DNA of 47,606 nucleotides from a virus: positions 1-47,606 of the IMG/VR virus record IMGVR_UViG_3300033153_003319, one strand, 5' to 3'. The notes below the pieces were generated by a model, which searched no databases, was not told the DNA's origin, and saw only the letters and a list, made by a program, of their open reading frames with translations. Position 1 is the stretch's first letter, and every line of letters starts with the position of its first letter. Shown in pieces: positions 934 to 31,489 of this stretch. A program made the position numbers and the translations under genes.

Positions 934-3147
934 ATGGCTGGACTTGAACATGCTAGATACAAGATATACTCGAAGTCTCAGCACCCGTTAAACCACTCGC
1001 TGTCAGACTTTCTATATGGTAATCCATCAGCGCCAGACGTTAAGAACGTCGAGGGTGCACTTAACTTCATCCTTGCCGTGCTATATCCACAGACAAAAAG
1101 TTCCGTTGACTGGGTATTAGACCAAGGTGACGGCTCTACATTCTTGCCAGTTGCAGGAAATTCTTTAGGAGACTACCGGAATGTACTTAACGGGTACACT
1201 AAAGATGCAGGGGTTACATATAAAACTGCTGGTTATATGTGGGCCAAGTATGATGGTGATGCTGTGGAGACATGGCATAAGACCACAGTATTTGATTGGG
1301 GTACTGGCGATGTAGCTAGTGTCATGGTTGATAGGACAAAGTTACTATACTATTTCAAGCAAGGTCTTGATGATGTAGACGAGGACGGGAATCTAATCAT
1401 TGGCGATCTCGCAGGTCAAGTCCTCTATGGTGGTCAGTCGCCAAATACCAACTTGACGCTAAATGCAAACAACGGTGACCCAGTAGGACACTCTGGATTC
1501 ATACAGCTAAATGATGATACAATCCCCTTTGAGGATGGACTATTTATTCTTGGGTCAGATGCGAAGAGATTTCTCACAATATATAGTGATGACATTAAGA
1601 CAAGAGAACTGTCTGTTGGATTTAGTGCGGGATACCAGCTTAGTATCAACACAACTCCTACAAAAGCTGTCTTTACGCACACTCAAAACAACATAGATTT
1701 TGGAGGGTCACGACTTACAACTACAGGCCCCGTATATATATCTAACGATATTCAGATAACTGCTGGAATATTTAAGTGTATTAATTCAGCAGCTTTGTAT
1801 TTCAGAGATGCTGCATCAGCATTGCTAGACATCGTTGCTGGTAAGGGTGCATTCTCTGATCTATTGGTGGGGAATGAATTAGCGATTGATGGGTCGTCCA
1901 TTATATGTGGAACAGACTCTCAAGATGTTACATTATCAGCGACAAACGCAGGCATCATTCTTGACGCCAATACTGTAAATACTACTACATTAGTACCATT
2001 GGTTGACTCAATGTATAACATTGGTGCCGAAGGGTCTGAGTATGTAGCAGCATTCATAGACTCAGTTAAAACAAATGATATAAATACAACCAGTGGCGAT
2101 TTAACTCTTGGTGCCTTTGGTCTTGATGGACAAATATTCCTTGCCTCAGAAGCTCAAACTATTAATTTGAAAACTACTGGAACACTTACAGTCGATGGGA
2201 AGCTAAAAGTTGACCAACTTGAATTTGATGGCGACACAATCAACTCATCAACTGGCATTATATATGTCCATGATAGCATTAGACCTTTTGTAGATGCAGT
2301 CAAAGGAGTTAGTGGATTAAAGCTAGGGCATGATAGCCATAGATTTTCTCATGGTTACTTTACAGACTATCTATCAGATGGAGCTGGAAGTATTATTGAG
2401 GCATCTGAATGGGGAAGTCTTCGCTATGTTAACTATGAAGATGCTAATAAAATTACACCAGCATCCGAAGGTCAAATCCTGATTAGAGACAATCTAGGTA
2501 GATGGCTAGCAAGTGACATGGAATCAATTATTGACCACGCTGATATTAACGGCCTAGGCAGTGATGACCACACACAGTATGTTATGCTTAACGGTCGCTT
2601 TGGTGGTCAGATTATAGCTGGTGGGTTAACTAATGCTCACAAGTTGCATCTACAAGGATTCCTGACAGGTAGATCATTCAATATAAGTGATGTTGGCTTC
2701 ATGCCTAGTGTAACTAGTGCAATGGATATTGGGTCACTGACTCACAAGATAAACAACTTATATTTATCTGGCGAGATCAAGACAGGACGAATAGAGAACG
2801 TAGCAGCACTGCCAGCGGCAGGAAGCGCAGGGCACCTAGTATTCAATACGACTGATAACTCTGTCTATGCTGACACAGGTGCAGACTATATAAGAGTTGG
2901 CGGTAAATCCTGCAAAGGAACATTCACTCAAGGCGATTTAGCAGCGGCCATTAACGTGTCGAAAGCAACTGGTCATGCGAATTTAACAGGTTACGTAGAT
3001 GATGCTGTCGATTGCTTGTGGCAACTCAAGAACTCGACAGGGGAAGTCCTAGCGGTTAAGATTACGGTGACAACAACGACGGTAACAGTAAGCACCAGCA
3101 TACCACTACCTGCTGGAAACTATAGATTAGTAGGAGTCGAAGCATGA
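934..3147 (+). CDS. Tail fibre/spike protein, 737 aa
   Basis: The protein is a repetitive Gly/Asn/Thr/Asp-rich chain of short beta-strands, as expected of a trimeric fibre. Two copies of a fibre repeat are clear: DSMYNIGAEGSEYVAAFID and SAMDIGSLTHKINNLYLSGE, the latter like the 'IGS..nrf.nlYlsg.i' repeat common in phage fibres. A DHADINGLGSDDHTQYVMLN segment (about residue 537) matches the GL-x-DDHTQY motif of many tail fibres. A collar-like C-terminal part (AGHLVFNTTDNSVYADTGA) precedes a final beta-rich domain. Host-receptor binding at the tail is the probable role. The first 100 residues, conserved in style, probably attach it to the tail. It overlaps the next gene by 4 bp (ATGA). Confidence 0.85.
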   Translation: MAGLEHARYKIYSKSQHPLNHSLSDFLYGNPSAPDVKNVEGALNFILAVLYPQTKSSVDWVLDQGDGSTFLPVAGNSLGDYRNVLNGYTKDAGVTYKTAGYMWAKYDGDAVETWHKTTVFDWGTGDVASVMVDRTKLLYYFKQGLDDVDEDGNLIIGDLAGQVLYGGQSPNTNLTLNANNGDPVGHSGFIQLNDDTIPFEDGLFILGSDAKRFLTIYSDDIKTRELSVGFSAGYQLSINTTPTKAVFTHTQNNIDFGGSRLTTTGPVYISNDIQITAGIFKCINSAALYFRDAASALLDIVAGKGAFSDLLVGNELAIDGSSIICGTDSQDVTLSATNAGIILDANTVNTTTLVPLVDSMYNIGAEGSEYVAAFIDSVKTNDINTTSGDLTLGAFGLDGQIFLASEAQTINLKTTGTLTVDGKLKVDQLEFDGDTINSSTGIIYVHDSIRPFVDAVKGVSGLKLGHDSHRFSHGYFTDYLSDGAGSIIEASEWGSLRYVNYEDANKITPASEGQILIRDNLGRWLASDMESIIDHADINGLGSDDHTQYVMLNGRFGGQIIAGGLTNAHKLHLQGFLTGRSFNISDVGFMPSVTSAMDIGSLTHKINNLYLSGEIKTGRIENVAALPAAGSAGHLVFNTTDNSVYADTGADYIRVGGKSCKGTFTQGDLAAAINVSKATGHANLTGYVDDAVDCLWQLKNSTGEVLAVKITVTTTTVTVSTSIPLPAGNYRLVGVEA

Positions 3148-3842
3148 TTATAGGAAGCCAATTAGAAAATGCTCAGCTAGAGAATAGGGGAGTAGGCTCA
3201 GGGAATCCAGCTACACCAGCGACAGATGTTAAAGGTAAGATCATGCACGATCAGGATGCAGATGCCTTGTGTATCTATGATCTAAATAGTCAAAAGAGAC
3301 TTATTCCACTTGATATAGTCAGTGACTATCAAGGTGTTGATGCGGCTAATCTGCTAGCGGCCAACAACCATACAGACACAGAAATAACGACTGTTAATAA
3401 TAGGATAGATGGAATTGTTACACCTCATATAGTAACTGGTAATACAGCCGGTGGTTCGGGCGCAGTAATAACTAAGACGATTAATTTCGCACTTGATTCT
3501 GGATGGCATATGTTTACATTACACTGCCAAGACTTGCTTTCATCAGCCAGTGGTTCCAATCCCCAATCATACCCTGCTGTCCAGTCGGTATCCTCTGATA
3601 TATCTTGTCAGATGAGTGGCCCATTTATGGGTGCTTTTAACTTTGGTCGCAATCGTGGATGGAACTCAAGTAGGGTGAACCTTGGTAGTTGTCCCGCTGT
3701 TTCACTGTTAGTAGATTCTGGACACACATCCTTTACTTTTATATTTACACACACACACTCTATATCTGGATATTCTAACCAAGAGAAGTCAATGAGTCTT
3801 GGTGGGCTATCATATAGTTTCCATAAGGTATCGGAGTTATAA
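3144..3842 (+). CDS. Tail fibre tip/accessory protein, 232 aa
   Basis: The N-terminus (MIIGSQLENAQLENRG, then KGKIMHDQDADALCIYD) is a module also present in the next gene (MKVYGEIEEAQLQNLA, then GQFHMNTTSKFMKYND). Such 'AQLxN...GxxxxNTxxxxxxxYdg' modules are attachment or collar units of fibre tips. The middle is a Gly/Thr-rich linker, and the C-terminal half is Ser/Gly/His-rich (LSSASGSNPQSYP; HTHSISGYSNQEK), a possible receptor-contact or metal-binding tip. It lies directly behind the main fibre, with a 4-bp overlap. Function is inferred from repeats and position. Confidence 0.65.
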   Translation: MIIGSQLENAQLENRGVGSGNPATPATDVKGKIMHDQDADALCIYDLNSQKRLIPLDIVSDYQGVDAANLLAANNHTDTEITTVNNRIDGIVTPHIVTGNTAGGSGAVITKTINFALDSGWHMFTLHCQDLLSSASGSNPQSYPAVQSVSSDISCQMSGPFMGAFNFGRNRGWNSSRVNLGSCPAVSLLVDSGHTSFTFIFTHTHSISGYSNQEKSMSLGGLSYSFHKVSEL

Positions 3843-4136
3843 ATGAAAGTATATGGTGAAATAGAAGAAGCACAATTACAGAATTTAGCGACTGACCCTA
3901 CAGCTAATGTAGCTGGACAGTTTCACATGAACACGACGAGTAAGTTCATGAAGTACAACGATGGTTCTGGAAAGCGTAGAGTTATAGATGATGCTACGAT
4001 AGGACACTTTGGTACTCCGAATGTCGATGGCACATGGCCTAATGGAACTTGGAGAATATCTATAGACTCAGGTAAGTTAGCATTTGAAAAGATGGAGCTA
4101 ACTGTATGGGTTAAGCATTTCGAGATGGGGGAATGA
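3843..4136 (+). CDS. Short tail fibre adaptor paralogue, 97 aa
   Basis: It is essentially the N-terminal module of the preceding protein with a different short tail. AQLQNLATDPTANVAGQFHM and FMKYNDGSGKRRVIDDA align by eye with AQLENRG...GKIMHDQ and LCIYDLNSQKRLIPLD upstream. The start is well placed (GGAGTTATAAATG). A stand-alone module suggests a fibre connector or tip partner. It has no signal peptide, unlike the next three genes. The start of the next gene overlaps its stop. Confidence 0.6.
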   Translation: MKVYGEIEEAQLQNLATDPTANVAGQFHMNTTSKFMKYNDGSGKRRVIDDATIGHFGTPNVDGTWPNGTWRISIDSGKLAFEKMELTVWVKHFEMGE

Positions 4137-4936
4137 TGAGAAACATTATACTGCTATTGGCACTAACATTAATAGCCGGAAATGTTAGTGGAGCAGGTTC
4201 ATTCGTAGATACATTTCACTTCGGGAAGGTAGGCACTACTAGTAATGTGACTACTGAGTATGGAGATGTGGCAGAGATCAGATGGAATCATGGGCTATCA
4301 GTCCTTGAGTTTACATTCGATGGTATAGACTATAGTGAGCTTGGAACTGGTGGTGGTGGAGTTCCATTAATGGCGCAGGGTTCACTATTAACTTCCAATG
4401 GAACATCCAATGGAGAGTTTACTGCCTGTGCTAATGACCAGATAGTAGTCTGGGATAGTAATGAGACTGCTGGATTTAAGTGCGAGGCTAAACCTGTTGT
4501 TCCAGTAGCGTACACCCCTATCTTTTACACAAGTACAGGATTAGCTGACATAAAACTAGATACTGGAGTTTGGGTTTCAGTACCTAATACAAGTGTTAGT
4601 ATTAATCCAAACGGTAGGCCACTGGAAATAGGCTTTTACGCTCCAGCTGTTGCCCAGTATTCATCTATCTCCTATAGAAACAGTACTGCATCTCAAGTAT
4701 CTTATATAAGGTCTTTCTTTAGACTTGTGCTTGGAGGCTCGACAATATTAGCTTACAACAAACTATCATCAACAGTGACTGACCCATATACCTCTTCAAG
4801 TATCTCCTGTTCTTCTGTCAAATTTATATATAACACGACAGCAACCTCACCTATAAGTCTATCAATTGAAGCTATTGGGTATTCTGGAACACCTGTAGAA
4901 ATTGAAAATTGTAAGATGTATGTAAAAGGATTGTAA
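4133..4936 (+). CDS. Signal-peptide-bearing fibre-like exported protein, 267 aa
   Basis: Residues 1-20 (MMRNIILLLALTLIAGNVSG) form a typical Sec signal peptide with cleavage likely after Gly20 or Ala21, which is unusual for a tail-region protein. Residues 80-118 hold a module (GSLLTSNGTSNGEFTACAND, then VVWDSNETAGFKC) shared with the next gene, with Cys99 and Cys117 spaced 18 apart in both, as for an exported disulfide. The rest is a beta-rich jelly-roll-like domain ending in a Cys near the C-terminus (IENCKMYVKGL). Exported trimeric adhesins of Bdellovibrio are built from phage-fibre-like modules, so an exported adhesin or surface decoy is a fair guess. It may instead be a virion protein assembled at the membrane. 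Confidence 0.7.
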   Translation: MMRNIILLLALTLIAGNVSGAGSFVDTFHFGKVGTTSNVTTEYGDVAEIRWNHGLSVLEFTFDGIDYSELGTGGGGVPLMAQGSLLTSNGTSNGEFTACANDQIVVWDSNETAGFKCEAKPVVPVAYTPIFYTSTGLADIKLDTGVWVSVPNTSVSINPNGRPLEIGFYAPAVAQYSSISYRNSTASQVSYIRSFFRLVLGGSTILAYNKLSSTVTDPYTSSSISCSSVKFIYNTTATSPISLSIEAIGYSGTPVEIENCKMYVKGL

Positions 4937-5647
4937 ATGAAATATCTGATACTACTTTTATTCCCAACACTCCTATTAGCAGGCTTCACAGAGTTCCCAT
5001 CAGTAAACCCTCCAGATGATTCGATCACAGCGAAAGGAAACCTACTAACTAAGAGTACGGTACAGACTAACTTCGATGCTTGTCCAGATGGAGAATTTTT
5101 AGTTTGGGATTCTGCTCAAGATACTGGAATGATTTGTAGTGGGACCAACATTGGATTATCCGGTGGGAATATAATTATAAATGGGGGACTGTTCTCTGCG
5201 AGCAACCACATTAATTACGCTACATCAGTTAACCAAGCGGCGGCTTTATTCTTTTACAGGGATGGAGGCTCGAGTCATACTGGATATTTAAGTCATGGAT
5301 CTGATGGAGCATTGAGACTGTTAAATAAGGAAAATAAAGAAATATATTTCTATACTAATAATCTATTAAGAGTGGCAATAGGCGCAAATGGTCAAATGTA
5401 TATAAATGAAACAGGTGGTAACGGTGGGAATGTTTTACATGGATGTGTAAGAACGATTGTAAGTTGTAACCCAGCTACGAGTTGTTTTAACTATTGCGCC
5501 GCAGGTAAGATATTAACTGGGGGCGGTTGCAGTACATATTCAGGTGGGTATATAAAACATAACAGACCTATATCAACTACTGGATGGGGGTGTACTCATA
5601 CTGTATCTGGAAATATGTCTGCAGTAGCATTATGCTGTAATTACTAA
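4937..5647 (+). CDS. Signal-peptide-bearing, Cys-rich fibre-like exported protein, 236 aa
   Basis: The start follows the upstream TAA directly. Residues 1-16 (MKYLILLLFPTLLLAG) are a signal sequence; the cleavage region lacks a lipobox Cys. Residues 33-68 repeat the module of the upstream gene (KGNLLTKSTVQTNFDACPDG, then FLVWDSAQDTGMIC), with Cys49 and Cys67 at the same spacing. The last 70 residues hold eight Cys, including GGGC, GWGC and a final CC. This is a disulfide-rich tip resembling the 'GGGC...P...GW.C...CC' ends seen in some fibre-like adhesins. All this points to export into an oxidising compartment. Role: putative adhesin, receptor-binding tip or superinfection decoy. Confidence 0.7.
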   Translation: MKYLILLLFPTLLLAGFTEFPSVNPPDDSITAKGNLLTKSTVQTNFDACPDGEFLVWDSAQDTGMICSGTNIGLSGGNIIINGGLFSASNHINYATSVNQAAALFFYRDGGSSHTGYLSHGSDGALRLLNKENKEIYFYTNNLLRVAIGANGQMYINETGGNGGNVLHGCVRTIVSCNPATSCFNYCAAGKILTGGGCSTYSGGYIKHNRPISTTGWGCTHTVSGNMSAVALCCNY

Positions 5648-24074: not shown

Positions 24075-24330
24075 TCTTCTTTCCTTTGTTCTTGGTTATA
24101 GTTACTTTCGGTTTCCCGATTACCCTTGTTGCTAACTCAGTACCGATTCTCTTCATGACAGTTGATGACATCTTAGGGTTGTCGTCTTTGAAGTACACAC
24201 ACGTCTTTCGTAGGTCATGTAGTTCGTTGACAGTGAAGTCCTTTAAGTCCTTCATGTGCCATGAGAAGAGAGCATCAGTGCGCTTCATCCTCTTCCCAAA
24301 TACTTTATGTACCATATCGACTATGCTCAT
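23986..24330 (-). CDS. Hypothetical basic-tailed protein, 114 aa
   Basis: GGAGGGGATGAATG gives a strong start. Residues 1-75 are a compact helical domain (SWHMKDLKDFTVNELHDLRK), and the last 40 are strongly basic (TKNKGKKNARRTKSNRNRPS). The basic tail is encoded in the 89 bp that overlap the next gene in another frame, so it may have grown by loss of an earlier stop. The tail suggests nucleic-acid binding. It follows the primase with a 26-bp overlap. Confidence 0.6.
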   Translation of the reverse strand: MSIVDMVHKVFGKRMKRTDALFSWHMKDLKDFTVNELHDLRKTCVYFKDDNPKMSSTVMKRIGTELATRVIGKPKVTITKNKGKKNARRTKSNRNRPSTNQQETTKCVRNIPIK

Positions 24331-25297
24331 TCATCCCCTCCAAAAAATAACGGACTATATATTCAGCACCTTCCTTTGTGTAGACACAAGTGTTGACACA
24401 GTTCTCTTGCATCAGTGAACTTAGCTCTGATGTCTTGCACCCAATAGGTATGAGTGTGTCGTTACAATAGTAATGCTTGATCATCCCTGCCGTATAACCA
24501 GCACCACCACCTGCCTCCTTGAACACTGGATACATTTTAGATAGAGCGATGGCACCATCAAGGTCTACACCACACAGTCGCCAGTGCTTAACTAGCATGA
24601 AACAGAATGCCCACCGATTACCAGCAGATACACCATCACATAGCAAAGCCTTGAGACAAGGTACTAGAGCGTGTTTCCAGTCCACGTCAACAATAGTTGT
24701 ATCAACCTCAGGTCTATTCATTATCTCAAACACAGATGCTTTATGATCTGTTAAGAACTTCTTGTTGTTAAAGTCTAGTTCAGTTTGTACGAAAGGTTGA
24801 ACTGTCCTTGCTCTACTCATGATAGATGGTAGACTCTCGTTGTGGTTAACCTGTATCTTTCTTAGCTTACTCTTGGCGTTCTTCGAGTTAGGTAGTCGGA
24901 ACATGCTCCTTGTCTTATACATGGAGTCGTCTACCTCACTGGAAAACTTATGAGCTATACTCTTCATAGCTGTGTTGGCATATTCACCATAGCCTACTAG
25001 CCCTGTGATAACATGGAACCCTTTACTACCAGAGAACCATATAGATGTGTCGGCATCGTATTCATCTGCCACGTTATCAGCTATCTCAGAGGCAACACGA
25101 TAAGCATAGGCCATATCTTTTGAGTCAATGTCAAACACTAACTGTGACCACAGCTCGTCACCACTACGGTTATATGATTGTACGGAGCAGTACATGTCCT
25201 CTGCTCTGGCCGAGTGGATTATGTTTCTTATGTCTGAATGAGATAAGAGGCAATGATGAGAGAACCTCCCACCACTACCGTTAGTAAAGTATCTCAC
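24305..25297 (-). CDS. Archaeo-eukaryotic-type DNA primase, 330 aa
   Basis: The small-subunit AEP catalytic pattern is visible: LVFDIDSKD (Asp56, Asp58), SGSKGFHVITG (89-99, His95) and a basic MFRLPNSKNAKSKLRK segment. A C-terminal part from about 200 (GVSAGNRWAFCFMLVKHWRL, CGVDLDGAIAL) resembles the PriCT helical domain. Such enzymes make RNA or DNA primers and sometimes extend them. No helicase domain is fused, in contrast to many plasmid AEPs. It is transcribed directly after the SSB-like gene with a one-base overlap. No DNA polymerase gene was found, so this enzyme may contribute synthesis as well as priming. Confidence 0.85.
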   Translation of the reverse strand: MRYFTNGSGGRFSHHCLLSHSDIRNIIHSARAEDMYCSVQSYNRSGDELWSQLVFDIDSKDMAYAYRVASEIADNVADEYDADTSIWFSGSKGFHVITGLVGYGEYANTAMKSIAHKFSSEVDDSMYKTRSMFRLPNSKNAKSKLRKIQVNHNESLPSIMSRARTVQPFVQTELDFNNKKFLTDHKASVFEIMNRPEVDTTIVDVDWKHALVPCLKALLCDGVSAGNRWAFCFMLVKHWRLCGVDLDGAIALSKMYPVFKEAGGGAGYTAGMIKHYYCNDTLIPIGCKTSELSSLMQENCVNTCVYTKEGAEYIVRYFLEGMNEHSRYGT

Positions 25298-26059: not shown

Positions 26060-26770
26060 CTACTCCTTTAATGCATTTACTATGCAAGTATAATCATTTG
26101 GCATCACCTTAGGGTAAGCCTGCTTAACTTTCTGTAGTCTAGTACCAGCACAGTTACGTTCAGTACCAGCTATCTCACACCAGTAGGCAGGGTTGCCTTT
26201 GGCATCTAATCCCATCTGGTTGTAGAGGATGGTATCGAAGTAACCAACTAGGTCGAACTTGAATCCACCTTGTAGGTTAGGGAATATCTTAACGGCACCA
26301 GTTAATTTATCCTTCTCTTCTTGTGCCATCGCTGTCATGTGGATGCTTGAGGTACACTGCTTAGTCAGTACATCAACTATCTTCCTTAGCTTGATGGCAA
26401 GGGTGTCATACTTACCCATCGTCATCACACCCTTGTTCTTCTTGTGTGAGTCAGGCTCTTGGATTAGGTATTCCTTAAGGTATGACTGTATCCTTGTGAT
26501 GCTGTCGATAGCTAGGTGGGTGTACGTCTTCTGCCCTTCTAGCATGTACCACTCAAGAGCTTCTTCGATCTCCTTCCAGTTGTGTACTGTTACGAAGTCG
26601 AACTTCTTATCAGTGATAGTAGATAGTCCACACTCTACATCAATAACGAATAGTTTACCGTGGTCTGCCATCGTACCAATGAAGTGTGTCTTACCTTTAC
26701 GTGAGTCGGACACGCTGATGCTGGTAGTCCTCGTGCTGCTAACAACGTCAGCACTTGTTTGTATCTGCAT
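26060..26770 (-). CDS. Sak4-like RecA-fold ATPase (AAA_24 type), 236 aa
   Basis: The layout is that of phage single-strand-annealing or Rad51-like Sak4 ATPases: a P-loop (SDSRKGKTHF, 21-30), a strand with Asp (FVIDVECGLS), Walker B THLAIDSITRIQ (Asp89), and KLRKIVDVLTKQCTSSIHMT. The P-loop lacks the usual first Gly residues; many family members are degenerate here. The role would be recombination-dependent replication together with the exonuclease 19 bp upstream. About 236 residues is normal. Confidence 0.8.
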   Translation of the reverse strand: MQIQTSADVVSSTRTTSISVSDSRKGKTHFIGTMADHGKLFVIDVECGLSTITDKKFDFVTVHNWKEIEEALEWYMLEGQKTYTHLAIDSITRIQSYLKEYLIQEPDSHKKNKGVMTMGKYDTLAIKLRKIVDVLTKQCTSSIHMTAMAQEEKDKLTGAVKIFPNLQGGFKFDLVGYFDTILYNQMGLDAKGNPAYWCEIAGTERNCAGTRLQKVKQAYPKVMPNDYTCIVNALKE

Positions 26771-26788: not shown

Positions 26789-27430
26789 TTACATGCCGTA
26801 GTATCTCTTGACCATTTCCTTTACGATCTCAACGTCTTGCTTGTTGTACTTCATGAGCAGACTAAGATCATCCTCACTACATGTGTTGGTAATCATCCCA
26901 CTGTAAACCTTATCTACTATAGTATAGTCACCGAACTTACCTTCGATGCCTAAGCCATAAGCGTATGCTTCGAGTGACATGCGCTGACTACTCGCAGCCG
27001 AGTACACAAAAAAATCGTCAACGTCATATAAGCATGACCTCTCTGACAGGAACCTCGGTGGTGTTAACTTGTTAGCTAAGTACCTACCAACTAGGAAGGG
27101 ATAGTCGAATGTCTTACCACTCTTGCTGTACACCTTCTGAATGTTCACCTTGTTAGTCATGTCGGACAGGTAGGTTAGTAACTTGGCTTCATCAAGGTCT
27201 ACGTTAAAGTCTATCGTATCACCTTCGATGTTACCGAACGCTATTGAGAACACCTTACCTGTATGCCAAGTCAGTGCTGACTTACTACCAAGTGCTGCCT
27301 TCTTCTCTTTGATGTAGGCATCAATCTTAACTTGATCTTTGTAGTTAGCTGGTGCCTTGATCTCTGTCTTGTTCCACCAAGCATCAGCACGTTCATGCCT
27401 CACTGTTTCAATATCAATCGCTATCATCAT
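26789..27430 (-). CDS. DnaQ-like 3'-5' exonuclease (DEDDy), 213 aa
   Basis: Exo I is IAIDIETV (Asp6, Glu8), Exo II SGKTFDYPFLVGRY (Asp109) and Exo III YNKQDVEIVKEM (Tyr195, Asp199), so the DEDDy set is complete. The protein resembles stand-alone phage exonucleases related to family B polymerase proofreading domains, but no polymerase domain follows. It could make 3' ends for the Sak4-like ATPase or proofread for the host polymerase. Start: two adjacent ATG codons; either works. Confidence 0.85.
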   Translation of the reverse strand: MMIAIDIETVRHERADAWWNKTEIKAPANYKDQVKIDAYIKEKKAALGSKSALTWHTGKVFSIAFGNIEGDTIDFNVDLDEAKLLTYLSDMTNKVNIQKVYSKSGKTFDYPFLVGRYLANKLTPPRFLSERSCLYDVDDFFVYSAASSQRMSLEAYAYGLGIEGKFGDYTIVDKVYSGMITNTCSEDDLSLLMKYNKQDVEIVKEMVKRYYGM

Positions 27431-28069: not shown

Positions 28070-28753
28070 TTATTCAAGTAAGTTATCCCCTGTTGAACTA
28101 AACATCAGAGTCGGGGCATTGTTCTTAATATCGTAGGCCATATTTCTCACGTATGGCAAGCCCATTGTAATGTCTTTGACTGCTTTGCAAATGAATCCTG
28201 ATATGAGTAGCGTTGTGTAGATAGTAGCTTTAGCAGTACAACTTTCTTGTACTCCTTGTTCGTCAGTGAACCATGCTTTCTCGAACTCTTTGTTATCATC
28301 TCTGTTGTTCTTGTAGATGTTCATGGTAGCGTACTCACCACCCATAGCTGGGTTGATTAAGTTACCATAGCCAGTGCTCTCACTATAGAGTTTATGGATA
28401 ACCTTGCGAGACTGCATACTATCCACTGCCAAGATCACTATGTCAGTGGATTCAATATAAGAGTTCTCGTTAACTCTGAGGTTACTGACCTTAATTGGCA
28501 CACGCACAGCTCGTAGTGTCTTCTGTTTAACTGCTTCAACTTTAGACTTACCAACATCACACATGTCAAAGCCTTGAGAGGACACGTTGCTTAGTGATAC
28601 AACATCATTATCTATTAGTGTTAGGTTGTGGTATCCCATCCTAGTTAGTGCTATAGCAGTATGAGAACCGATACCACCAGCACCGATGATTGTTATCCTT
28701 GTCTGTCTTGCCGACTTTGTTATCAGGTCAGCTTGTCTTGTTAAGTATTCCAT
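28070..28753 (-). CDS. ThiF/MoeB-type E1-like adenylyltransferase, 227 aa
   Basis: Residues 19-78 carry the E1 adenylation core: ITIIGAGGIGSHTAIAL (Gly24-Gly29), LIDNDVVSLSNVSSQGFD (Asp48, Asp50) and DVGKSKVEAV (Lys69/71), followed by ILAVDSMQSRKVIHKL (Asp111), the second ATP/Mg site. The usual Arg of the SNxxRQ stretch is Ser here. Cys172 (VQESCTAKATIYTT) is the best candidate for thioester transfer. There is no Cys-x-x-Cys zinc pair and no second domain, so it is a minimal E1. It would adenylate the Gly-Gly terminus of the small beta-grasp protein encoded upstream. It shares one base with the JAB stop, indicating coupling. Confidence 0.9.
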   Translation of the reverse strand: MEYLTRQADLITKSARQTRITIIGAGGIGSHTAIALTRMGYHNLTLIDNDVVSLSNVSSQGFDMCDVGKSKVEAVKQKTLRAVRVPIKVSNLRVNENSYIESTDIVILAVDSMQSRKVIHKLYSESTGYGNLINPAMGGEYATMNIYKNNRDDNKEFEKAWFTDEQGVQESCTAKATIYTTLLISGFICKAVKDITMGLPYVRNMAYDIKNNAPTLMFSSTGDNLLE

Positions 28754-29688
28754 TATTTACCTACTGTTGAGATGGTATAGTTATCAGCTACCCATGCTAT
28801 TAGTTGTTGATACCCAGTTGGTGGTGCTAGGTTCTCTTCTAAGAAGTCATCGTATAGTGTCGTCGCTAACAGTGTGTCAGTACCGAACTCACTCTTGATA
28901 AGATCAACATGTATGTCTCGATGAGGGTCTTCCTCAGTTGGTGGTGTGTCCTTGCCATACATCTCATTGTAGAATTTATCAGTAGATTCTCTTGAATAAG
29001 AGTCACCGTAATGGTTAGTGCGATTGTGTTTGTCCCAGTAGTTATCACTACCAGTAATAGTAAACGGTACCACTGCTTCTCTAGTCACATTACCCTTGAT
29101 GATCTTATGGGTTTCCTCAGTAGGTATGATGACTGTCTTTAAGTTGTCACTGTACACTGCTGGATAGAATCCATCATCACTTCTAGCTTGTCGGTATGCT
29201 GTACGGAACTCGAACTTACGATTGAACACTGTTGCTACTACTCTACCGTTAGCTGCTAGTTGTTTCTTAGCTTCATGGTCAGTGCCACTCCATCCAGTAG
29301 ACATATCAACGTGGCTATGTCCCCACCATATAAGCTCACCGTAATCTGCGTACTTACCGTCTTCACACTCATACTCTAAGACAGCTAACTCATCAGCGTC
29401 CATCGTAGTCTCTACTGCTGAACACTCTTGCTTAGGTACATGTATCTTAGTTACAATGTAACCATCATAGTATGGCTTGAGCTGTCCCATCCAACTAATC
29501 TCTATGTCACATCCAATGCATAGACCTAGTATCTGTCCGTATATATCAGAAGGTATGTAGAGTGCAGCCTTGGTATCCACACTAGCTAGTACTGATACAG
29601 GTTTAGGTGGAGCGATAGTCGGCACACTACTTTTAGTAGGTGACTTACCACTCACTCGTTTGCTTTTGTTAGGTTTTTTCTTGGCCAT
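28753..29688 (-). CDS. JAB/JAMM (MPN+) zinc metalloprotease, 311 aa
   Basis: A complete JAMM motif is present: an early Glu (DIEISWMG, Glu63) and GHSHVDMSTGWSGTDHE giving His124, His126, Ser134 and Asp137 in the H-x-H-x7-S-x2-D pattern. The strands around it (VPKQECSAVETTMDADEL; VATVFNRKFEF) fit the phage JAB family. The first 35 residues are Lys/Ser/Pro-rich and disordered; about 130 residues after the domain are unrecognised. Such enzymes remove ubiquitin-like tails or trim C-terminal extensions. In this cassette the substrate would be the GGC-ending modifier. Two adjacent ATG codons exist; the second is six bases from AAGGAG and was used. Confidence 0.9.
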   Translation of the reverse strand: MAKKKPNKSKRVSGKSPTKSSVPTIAPPKPVSVLASVDTKAALYIPSDIYGQILGLCIGCDIEISWMGQLKPYYDGYIVTKIHVPKQECSAVETTMDADELAVLEYECEDGKYADYGELIWWGHSHVDMSTGWSGTDHEAKKQLAANGRVVATVFNRKFEFRTAYRQARSDDGFYPAVYSDNLKTVIIPTEETHKIIKGNVTREAVVPFTITGSDNYWDKHNRTNHYGDSYSRESTDKFYNEMYGKDTPPTEEDPHRDIHVDLIKSEFGTDTLLATTLYDDFLEENLAPPTGYQQLIAWVADNYTISTVGK

Positions 29689-31150
29689 CATTATCTCCTT
29701 TGATTAAGATTGTGCCGTGTGATTCATCGGTTACGGTATAGGTTCTCTTGTGTATCATGGCTACTGTCGTGTCGAATAACTTAGTAGCGTTTCCTAATGT
29801 TGGTTCTTCCTTGGAGTTATCATCTAGTTGTCCAAGTGTTTCAAGTTCATCTCTGTTTATGACGAAAGGGATAGTGTTAATGACATGTTCTCGGCAGTGC
29901 GAGTACACATCATTATTGCTGAGGATTATCTGGATATCATTTCCTTTCTCAAGTCTATCTACTAGCTTGACAAGGTGGGAATTGATACTTATGTGAAAGT
30001 GGTAGTTTTTACGAGACAGTGCTGAGTATAGTTCCTCGCCAACGATATGTTCTATCGTAAGGTTGACAGGTGCGAACACTATGATGCCAACTTTGTTAAG
30101 CCTAGACATGTCATCGTAAACAGCGGAGACAAAGCTATTTATCTGTTGTGACTTAGCACTATCGAGTGAAGTGATAAGACTGTTGTATCCTATCTTATCG
30201 TAGCCACTCCATGTAACAAACGGTGAGCCAGAGTTGTATGCTCTTAGTAGTTTGTCTACTTGTTTGAAGATACCAATGATGTCATCGGTTCGACATGCTT
30301 CATTGTATGGTTCACTAAGGTCACCCCAGCATATATACTCTCCTATGTGTGGGTGAAATGCTCCATAGTTATTCTGTCTCCTTATTGAGTACACCTCTTT
30401 ATCTCTGAGATATTGCATGCCATTGCTACTACTCAACTTAATAACCATTGGCTGAGTCATCTTCGGTGATCTAGTGGATGTGTTAATGTCATACATTAGA
30501 CGTGGTTTTATGAATACGCTAGAGTGTATCCTCCCATCTCTTGATACAGTCAAGTTAAGAGGGTACATGTCAAGCTCAGCTAGCCCACTTATAAATGAGT
30601 TAACCTTCTCGACTACGTTTACCTTCCTAGTAGCTGGTATATCTTTGATCTGTTCCTTTATATCAAAGGCTTTCTTAGCTTCTATTGATGCACGATTAAA
30701 CTTGGCTTGTGCATCTCTCATCCTACCATGACCAGCACTGTTGCTACTGTCGGCCTGTCTCATATGAGATACCATAGTGTCTTTAAGGTCAGTAAGTAAT
30801 GTATTTTCGACTTCGATAATACCCATGTCATCAGTAAGAGTGTCACCAACATCTATTGTGGCTGAGCTAGTTACAGACAATGTGTCGAGTGACTCGTGTA
30901 GGCTACCATATTTATCATATAGGTAGTCAGTGTAGTCACCTTCGATGTTGATAGGTTCATTGGCGGTCCCTAGTATAACGAAGGCACGTAGCTTTCTAAA
31001 CTCAGGGACATCATTAAGGAACATAGACAGTGCACCTAAGAACTTAGTCATGTCTATCTTAGCGTCGATCATCTTCTGTTTCCAGCGTGACCCTTTCAAT
31101 CGTAACACATCCTCTAGTGTTACATCCTCTAACGGTTTAATTCTTCTCAT
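29669..31150 (-). CDS. E2-like protein candidate of the ubiquitin-like cassette, 493 aa
   Basis: AAGGAG six bases before the ATG at 31150 sets the start; 23 further codons upstream lack a ribosome site. The first 190 residues are helical (VTLEDVLRLKGSRWKQKMID) with no known domain. The centre looks like a ubiquitin-conjugating fold: strands SSVFIKPRLMYDI and QPMVIKLSS, then AFHPHIGEYICWGDL (His266-Pro-His-Ile, Cys274) in the place of the E2 HPN...Cys stretch, then a helix and LLRAYNSGSPFV (Asn306), which recalls the 'LL..pN...P' end of E2 cores. The last 180 residues may be a separate domain. I infer that Cys274 accepts the modifier. This is motif-level inference; position between the Ubl and JAB genes supports it. 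Confidence 0.6.
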   Translation of the reverse strand: MRRIKPLEDVTLEDVLRLKGSRWKQKMIDAKIDMTKFLGALSMFLNDVPEFRKLRAFVILGTANEPINIEGDYTDYLYDKYGSLHESLDTLSVTSSATIDVGDTLTDDMGIIEVENTLLTDLKDTMVSHMRQADSSNSAGHGRMRDAQAKFNRASIEAKKAFDIKEQIKDIPATRKVNVVEKVNSFISGLAELDMYPLNLTVSRDGRIHSSVFIKPRLMYDINTSTRSPKMTQPMVIKLSSSNGMQYLRDKEVYSIRRQNNYGAFHPHIGEYICWGDLSEPYNEACRTDDIIGIFKQVDKLLRAYNSGSPFVTWSGYDKIGYNSLITSLDSAKSQQINSFVSAVYDDMSRLNKVGIIVFAPVNLTIEHIVGEELYSALSRKNYHFHISINSHLVKLVDRLEKGNDIQIILSNNDVYSHCREHVINTIPFVINRDELETLGQLDDNSKEEPTLGNATKLFDTTVAMIHKRTYTVTDESHGTILIKGDNDGQEKT

Positions 31151-31264: not shown

Positions 31265-31489
31265 CTAGCATCCACCCTTAACAGCTTCGGCCAGAGTAAT
31301 TAACTTACCACCACCACTAGCAGTAGCTAGTTCACTAGTATCGGTGTTGGCCGGCTTACCATTGACTGTGATACTGTATGACTCAGGGTTAATCCCTGCC
31401 TTAGTCAGTACATCTCCAACAGTCGCACTGTTCTTAACGGTTACAGCGAACTTCTTTCCTCCGCTGAACTTCACATTCACGTCGATCAT
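31265..31489 (-). CDS. Ubiquitin-like beta-grasp protein ending Gly-Gly-Cys, 74 aa
   Basis: Size and layout match MoaD/ThiS-like ubiquitin folds: strands VNVKFSGGKKFAVTV, a helix TVGDVLTKAGI, SYSITVNGKPAN, and a last strand GGKLITLAEAV before KGGC (Lys71-Gly-Gly-Cys74). AGGAG lies six bases before the ATG. A Cys after the Gly-Gly is known from modifiers such as QbsE, whose JAMM partner removes the extra residues before E1 activation. The downstream JAB and E1 genes thus make this a probable protein or small-molecule modifier. A sulfur-carrier role is the alternative. Confidence 0.85.
   Translation of the reverse strand: MIDVNVKFSGGKKFAVTVKNSATVGDVLTKAGINPESYSITVNGKPANTDTSELATASGGGKLITLAEAVKGGC

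Follow-up and report, generated by a model that had tools for sequence, protein, structure and literature searches.

What is the 493-residue product of a viral gene that matches no model in Pfam, PHROGs, NCBIfam or PADLOC? The gene, P0001, lies in a window of 47,606 bases that is the entire IMG/VR virus record, and a good Shine-Dalgarno sequence (AGGAGA) stands ahead of its ATG (Table 1). A preliminary description of this DNA had pointed to the residues HPHI and to a Cys eight residues after the first His, with which the translation agrees exactly, and had suggested that they belong to a core resembling that of ubiquitin-conjugating enzymes (E2s). This suggestion is supported by conservation across a family of relatives, by matches to PDB sequences, by comparison of folds and by the operon in which the gene lies. 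P0001 is very probably the E2 of a pathway for ubiquitin-like modification that the phage itself encodes, a reading for which the neighbouring genes, encoding a ubiquitin-like protein (Ubl), a JAMM protease and an adenylating enzyme (E1) and left unmentioned in the preliminary description, carry most weight.

Table 1. Features of the 47,606-base window, in order of coordinates
Feature	Coordinates	Strand	Evidence
Primase-polymerase-like protein, downstream	24305..25297	(-)	Family scans, primase profile
Sak4-like ssDNA annealing/AAA protein, downstream	26060..26770	(-)	phrog_124, E 1.5e-25
Weak match to 3'-5' exonuclease families, same gene cluster, downstream	26789..27430	(-)	Family scans
E1-like ThiF adenylating enzyme, 227 aa, single domain	28070..28753	(-)	Pfam ThiF
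JAB/JAMM metalloprotease, 312 aa	28753..29691	(-)	Metal-site residues, PDB profile matches
E2-like protein P0001, 493 aa	29669..31150	(-)	ORF translation, family conservation, profiles, predicted structure
UBC/E2-like domain (approximate), residues 150-325	30176..30703	(-)	VIA-align range on E2 chains, low-confidence model
Active-site motif H266-P-H268-I-G-E-Y-I-C274-W-G, residues 266-276	30323..30355	(-)	Conservation in 49 sequences
Ubl, beta-grasp, SAMP2/ThiS-like, 74 aa, tail ...AVKGGC	31265..31489	(-)	Pfam SAMP2

The active-site motif and its conservation

In P0001, HPHI begins at residue 266, CWGD at residue 274 and LLRAYN (in the context LLRAYNSGSPF) at residue 301; its active-site loop has two residues fewer than that of canonical E2s, and the usual Gly is absent. 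The preliminary description had proposed to judge its reading by whether homologues keep Cys274 and the two His residues. In 49 non-redundant E2-like sequences the columns of P267, H268 and C274 are invariant and that of H266 is His in 48, so non-conservation was not seen; these relatives were gathered by the motif, which accounts for some of the invariance. The I269 column is occupied by I, V, L or M and the G276 column by Gly in 40 of the 49, and a preference for L302...N306..S309 follows downstream. A profile of the E2 core also retrieves the variants HPNI..FC, NPHIDRYSC and GPHI..ICWG.

Comparison of a profile of 33 cores with all PDB sequences gave 108 matches, of which the best 60, headed by one at E = 0.006, all belong to ubiquitin-conjugating enzymes, and UBE2W-type chains appear among the matches. 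In the alignment HPH falls on HPN, Cys on Cys, and LssynsrSP on L..PNPnSP. Matches to E2s by individual sequences are all weak. A full-length profile of six distant E2-like proteins returned only noise from the PDB, so that the trimmed 33-sequence core was needed, and the segment after the motif, used by itself, retrieved no E2s; the match to E2s therefore leans on the catalytic region. Within the window, P0001 is found with E = 4.7e-13 among 670 ORFs by a profile built without P0001 and its nearest relative, and the next-best ORF has an E-value of 4.5.

The Pfam family UQ_con does not match P0001, a result that tests the coverage of the model rather than providing a biochemical definition. 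Only one relative, in locus L033, matches UQ_con, weakly and below the cut-off (E 0.0024-0.0079). This locus encodes two adjacent E2-like proteins (3014-3892 and 3910-5127), both with HPH...C; the first is the one that matches UQ_con, and its neighbour carries FLTNPNPDDDWG, much like the LL.DPNPDDP found in eukaryotic E2s. A small phosphatase-like gene (2167-2637; CxxGxxRSG) lies upstream of the pair.

Predicted structure of the E2-like domain

The AlphaFold model of P0001, made with 37 sequences, has a mean pLDDT of 51.7 and reaches 67-88 in the blocks that span residues 261-310. It consists of helices, strands at 177-181, 191-195, 220-225 and 236-241, the active-site loop and further helices. 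When the model was compared with the PDB by Foldseek, the top 50 chains were all E2s or E2 complexes or fusions (best E 0.046, probability 0.93). VIA likewise returned mostly E2 rows over about residues 151-325, with Z of 5.7-6.4 (Z 6.4, rmsd 3.6, 128 residues against an E2). In the L092 relative, where the E2 motif is near the N-terminus, residues 1-190 are modelled at a pLDDT of about 90, and the rows listed by VIA for residues ~7-193 are E2 chains and one CENP-OPQUR chain; here too the best Z (6.9, rmsd 3.2, 119 residues) is below 8 and, as for P0001, not decisive by itself. When the whole L092 model was given to Foldseek, no E2 was retrieved, which probably reflects the low quality of that model in the long C-terminal part. 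Support from these models for a UBC fold in the E2-like family is moderate, and the fold evidence is coherent with that from sequence and operon.

The preliminary description had placed the domain at residues 195-315, and had named a non-UBC fold with a buried Cys274 as the contrary outcome. No such fold was seen: the E2-like reading stands, and it is the extent that changes, to about 150-325. This leaves an N-terminal flank of ~150 residues, predicted to be helical as had been proposed but shorter than the 190 given, and a C-terminal one of ~168 rather than 180. Scans of Pfam, PHROGs and NCBIfam matched no family in either flank, in keeping with the earlier view of the C-terminus. The flanks vary in length and placement across the E2-like relatives, and those of P0001 are mostly modelled at low confidence; they are possible E3-like recognition parts.

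An HxH...C that is a metal site, or a chance resemblance in a protein of another kind, would fit the weak single E-values to E2s and the failure of UQ_con to detect P0001. We consider this highly improbable in view of the family-wide conservation, the best 60 of 108 PDB matches, which are all E2s, the E2-like topology and the Ubl, E1 and JAMM genes that constantly accompany the family.

The Ubl, JAMM and E1 genes

The four genes are separate and form one tight operon, all on the (-) strand, transcribed in the order Ubl, P0001, JAMM and ThiF-type E1; the JAMM gene shares 23 bases with the E2 gene and 1 base with the E1 gene. The Ubl has a good ribosome-binding site and scores 36.5 bits against Pfam SAMP2 (cut-off 27), the family that its profile retrieves first. 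In the relatives the Ubl ends in KGG, VEGG, KSG, AG or RG, usually with 0-3 further residues after it, which is what trimming of the tail by the JAMM protein would predict. The JAMM protein contains GHSHVDMSTGWSGTDH, and its site, E..HxH..S..D, is complete, with E64, H125-S-H127, S135 and D138 invariant in all six proteins compared; all 20 PDB matches of its profile are JAMM-family chains (RPN11/CSN5/JAMM1-type). The E1 scores best with ThiF (86.6 bits, cut-off 28.1). Its GxGGxGS, D48, D50, N56, K71, D111 and R116 are almost invariant among 77 proteins compared, and C172 is kept in 76 of them, as expected for thioester chemistry. Rossmann/NAD matches of the E1 were dismissed as fold overlap.

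The same components could make up a sulfur-carrier or thiolation pathway of the ThiS/ThiF/JAMM kind, with P0001 as some other carrier-using enzyme and no conjugation to protein. The best families of the Ubl are SAMP2 and ThiS-like sulfur carriers, the E1 is best matched by ThiF, and sets of ThiS, JAMM and E1 with metabolic genes are on record (PMC1779556). Such a pathway is nevertheless very unlikely here, given the E2 catalytic motif and fold evidence of P0001, and sulfurtransferase, sulfur or cofactor genes were not recognised in the operon or among the downstream genes inspected.

The sequence shows the four genes and their motifs, how far these are conserved and how the genes co-occur; from this we infer the reactions, their order and their targets. 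In the conjugation pathway that we favour, the JAMM protease would trim the -GGC tail of the 74-residue Ubl to expose Gly-Gly, and the E1 would adenylate the Ubl glycine and then hold the Ubl as a Cys172 thioester. The Ubl would be handed from the E1 to Cys274 of P0001, in which His268 would occupy the place of the oxyanion-stabilising Asn of canonical E2s. P0001 would then attach the Ubl to a target, in the choice of which its N- and C-terminal extensions may take part, and the JAMM protease could also take the Ubl off again.

Relatives in viral sequences

As sole query, P0001 finds no relatives in GenBank phages or IMG/VR, and P0003, searched by the same route, likewise gives no matches. Relatives were reached through the JAMM gene, through a motif pattern and through an alignment of E1s. 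The JAMM protein leads to MT835544, a gut metagenomic phage scaffold with identical gene order. A degenerate scan of DNA for HPH[IV]xxYxC[FWLC]G gave four matches among 2.9 million viral contigs, all four within Ubl-E2-JAMM-E1 gene sets (one truncated by the contig end). In contrast, a near-identical pattern, run as a control over bacterial and archaeal genomes (257 Gb), gave four matches, all outside any such operon and with ORFs that are short or in the wrong frame; because the two scans differ in this way in operon context, the motif stands far above chance.

The E1 alignment finds at least 428 relatives (stretches of viral contigs) in IMG/VR, from which 80 E1 loci were fetched; the counts of co-occurrence refer to these 80. 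An ORF with the JAB/JAMM motif lies within 3.5 kb of the E1 in 75 loci, and a match to the E2-core profile (E<=1e-3) is present in 57, some of the remaining loci being truncated by contig ends. Most often a small Ubl comes first and is followed by a large E2-like protein, JAMM and E1, and it is usual for the E2 to be preceded by a small Ubl gene whose product ends in Gly.

Several loci depart from this pattern. In L036, L041, L047, L067 and L069 the JAMM gene comes after the E1 rather than before it, and the Ubl tails end in AG. The Ubl C-termini of L002 (3257-3493), L003 (4583-4813) and L096 lack a Gly motif (...KMDNALAA, ...KMDNAR and ...KADNAA); these operons keep the E1 and JAMM genes, and their E2 motif is QPH or NPH, not HPH. 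L043, which has two E2-like genes, encodes a tandem di-ubiquitin-like protein (3501-3917) with two beta-grasp-like repeats ending in VKGGS and VEGGQ, resembling a polyubiquitin precursor. A reverse transcriptase-like gene directly follows the operon in L002 (6954-8291), L003 (8455-9687), L004 (4164-5297) and L015 (3971-5077), that is, in all four loci of this branch in which the downstream side is present; the gene of L002 matches RVT_1 with E 2e-15, and its closest NCBIfam model is that of retron St85.

The E2 profile matches four virus records, and none of 791 genomes sampled from Bacteroidota and Actinomycetota. The E2s used as queries matched no deposited phage record except one metagenomic scaffold, and those scanned against PHROGs have no dedicated model there. 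As far as sequence can tell, P0001 is a member of a large phage family, one that has almost entirely escaped sequence databases and deposited phage genomes.

Downstream genes and candidate targets

The operon is located upstream of a Sak4-primase cluster that runs in the same direction (Table 1). The Sak4 of the window matches a profile from phages that carry the operon, and the primase matches a profile of primases from such phages with E 4.1e-16. A Sak4 relative lies no more than 3.5 kb downstream in 39 of the 80 E1 loci, mostly within 300 bases, and SSB-like and primase genes often follow it; a module of Sak4, SSB-like and primase genes, downstream of the E1, comes directly after the Ubl operon in L092, L037, L044, L097, L035 and L012. 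A profile of the SSB-like genes of other phages has no match in the window, and no SSB gene is therefore claimed there. Most of the Sak4-linked loci belong to one E1 lineage (40-50% identity), so that this synteny is suggestive, not independent evidence.

Given the position of the operon ahead of the Sak4 and primase genes, the first candidates for targets are replication and recombination proteins of the phage, or host factors that meet them. A broader proposal, which we make tentatively and with considerable doubt, is that many uncultivated phages possess, together with their HPH-type E2s, an entire and reversible Ubl pathway, by which they modify their own replication and recombination machinery. 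If true, this would be a viral counterpart of the control of replication by ubiquitin and SUMO in eukaryotes.

The pathway might instead disarm host proteins early in infection, for anti-defence or host takeover. Early functions are usual in clusters with replication genes, where this operon lies, and anti-defence proteins are commonly encoded early by phages; no known anti-defence gene was recognised adjoining the operon, however, and we regard this role as possible, if rather doubtful. The operon also makes it possible to test whether Ubl conjugation and phage DNA replication are connected.

Relation to known conjugation systems

Bacterial Ubl conjugation is known from few host systems, among which anti-phage defences are best studied; here a full pathway appears to be encoded by phages. 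Five types of bacterial operon with E1, E2-like and JAB genes were described by Iyer et al. 2006 (PMC1779556). Type 6d of Iyer, Burroughs and Aravind is likewise a single operon in which the Ubl, E2-like, JAB and E1-like genes are separate (PMC1779556). Its E2, however, lacks the upstream His, has a conserved His after the Cys and comes with a helical partner protein, whereas P0001 has HPH before the Cys; PF14460 (Prok-E2_D) has no match in the window at E<=1. We take type 6d operons to be the PRTRC systems.

BilABCD shares the four-part set of Ubl, E2, JAMM protease and E1, and differs from the phage operon in each of three proteins. The Bil E2 has a CEHH motif with the His after the Cys, the Bil E1 has an inactive and an active adenylation domain and a Cys domain, and the Bil Ubl has two beta-grasp domains (PMC11354881); in the phage operon the conserved His precedes the Cys of an E2 with large extensions, the E1 is a single ThiF domain of 227 residues and the Ubl has one domain. 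Since the defining features of 6d and Bil fail, the phage operon is filed under neither, and it may nonetheless, judging from its genes, work like both. That it is a captured defence system of the Bil or CBASS type, directed against competing phages rather than serving the phage's own replication, would agree with the role of bacterial Ubl conjugation in anti-phage defence (BilABCD, CBASS; PMC11354881, PMC10097602) and with the same four gene types in Bil. We think this unlikely: the E2 and E1 differ from those of Bil as described, and the operon lies directly ahead of replication and recombination genes in several lineages, unlike a mobile defence cassette.

Cap2 and Cap3 of CBASS bring E1, E2 and JAMM activities to protein conjugation, as the phage operon would. 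Cap2 is an E2-E1 fusion, and what becomes conjugated is the CD-NTase itself; in the phage operon, by contrast, all parts are separate and a true Ubl is present. Such compact, separate sets of E1, E2, Ubl and JAMM are now on offer for biochemistry.

In their motif the phage E2s resemble eukaryotic ones. His-Pro-His for His-Pro-Asn ahead of the catalytic Cys, as in P0001, is among eukaryotes the hallmark of UBE2W; its second His can assume the oxyanion role of the Asn, and the amines that UBE2W modifies are N-terminal ones (PMC4630614, PMC9527308). The UBC domain of UBE2W stands alone, whereas the phage domain is embedded in a protein of 493 residues. No published description of the phage operon was found in a search of openly accessible journal papers, and its sequence features fit best with a new variant of bacterial ubiquitin-like conjugation that is carried by phages.
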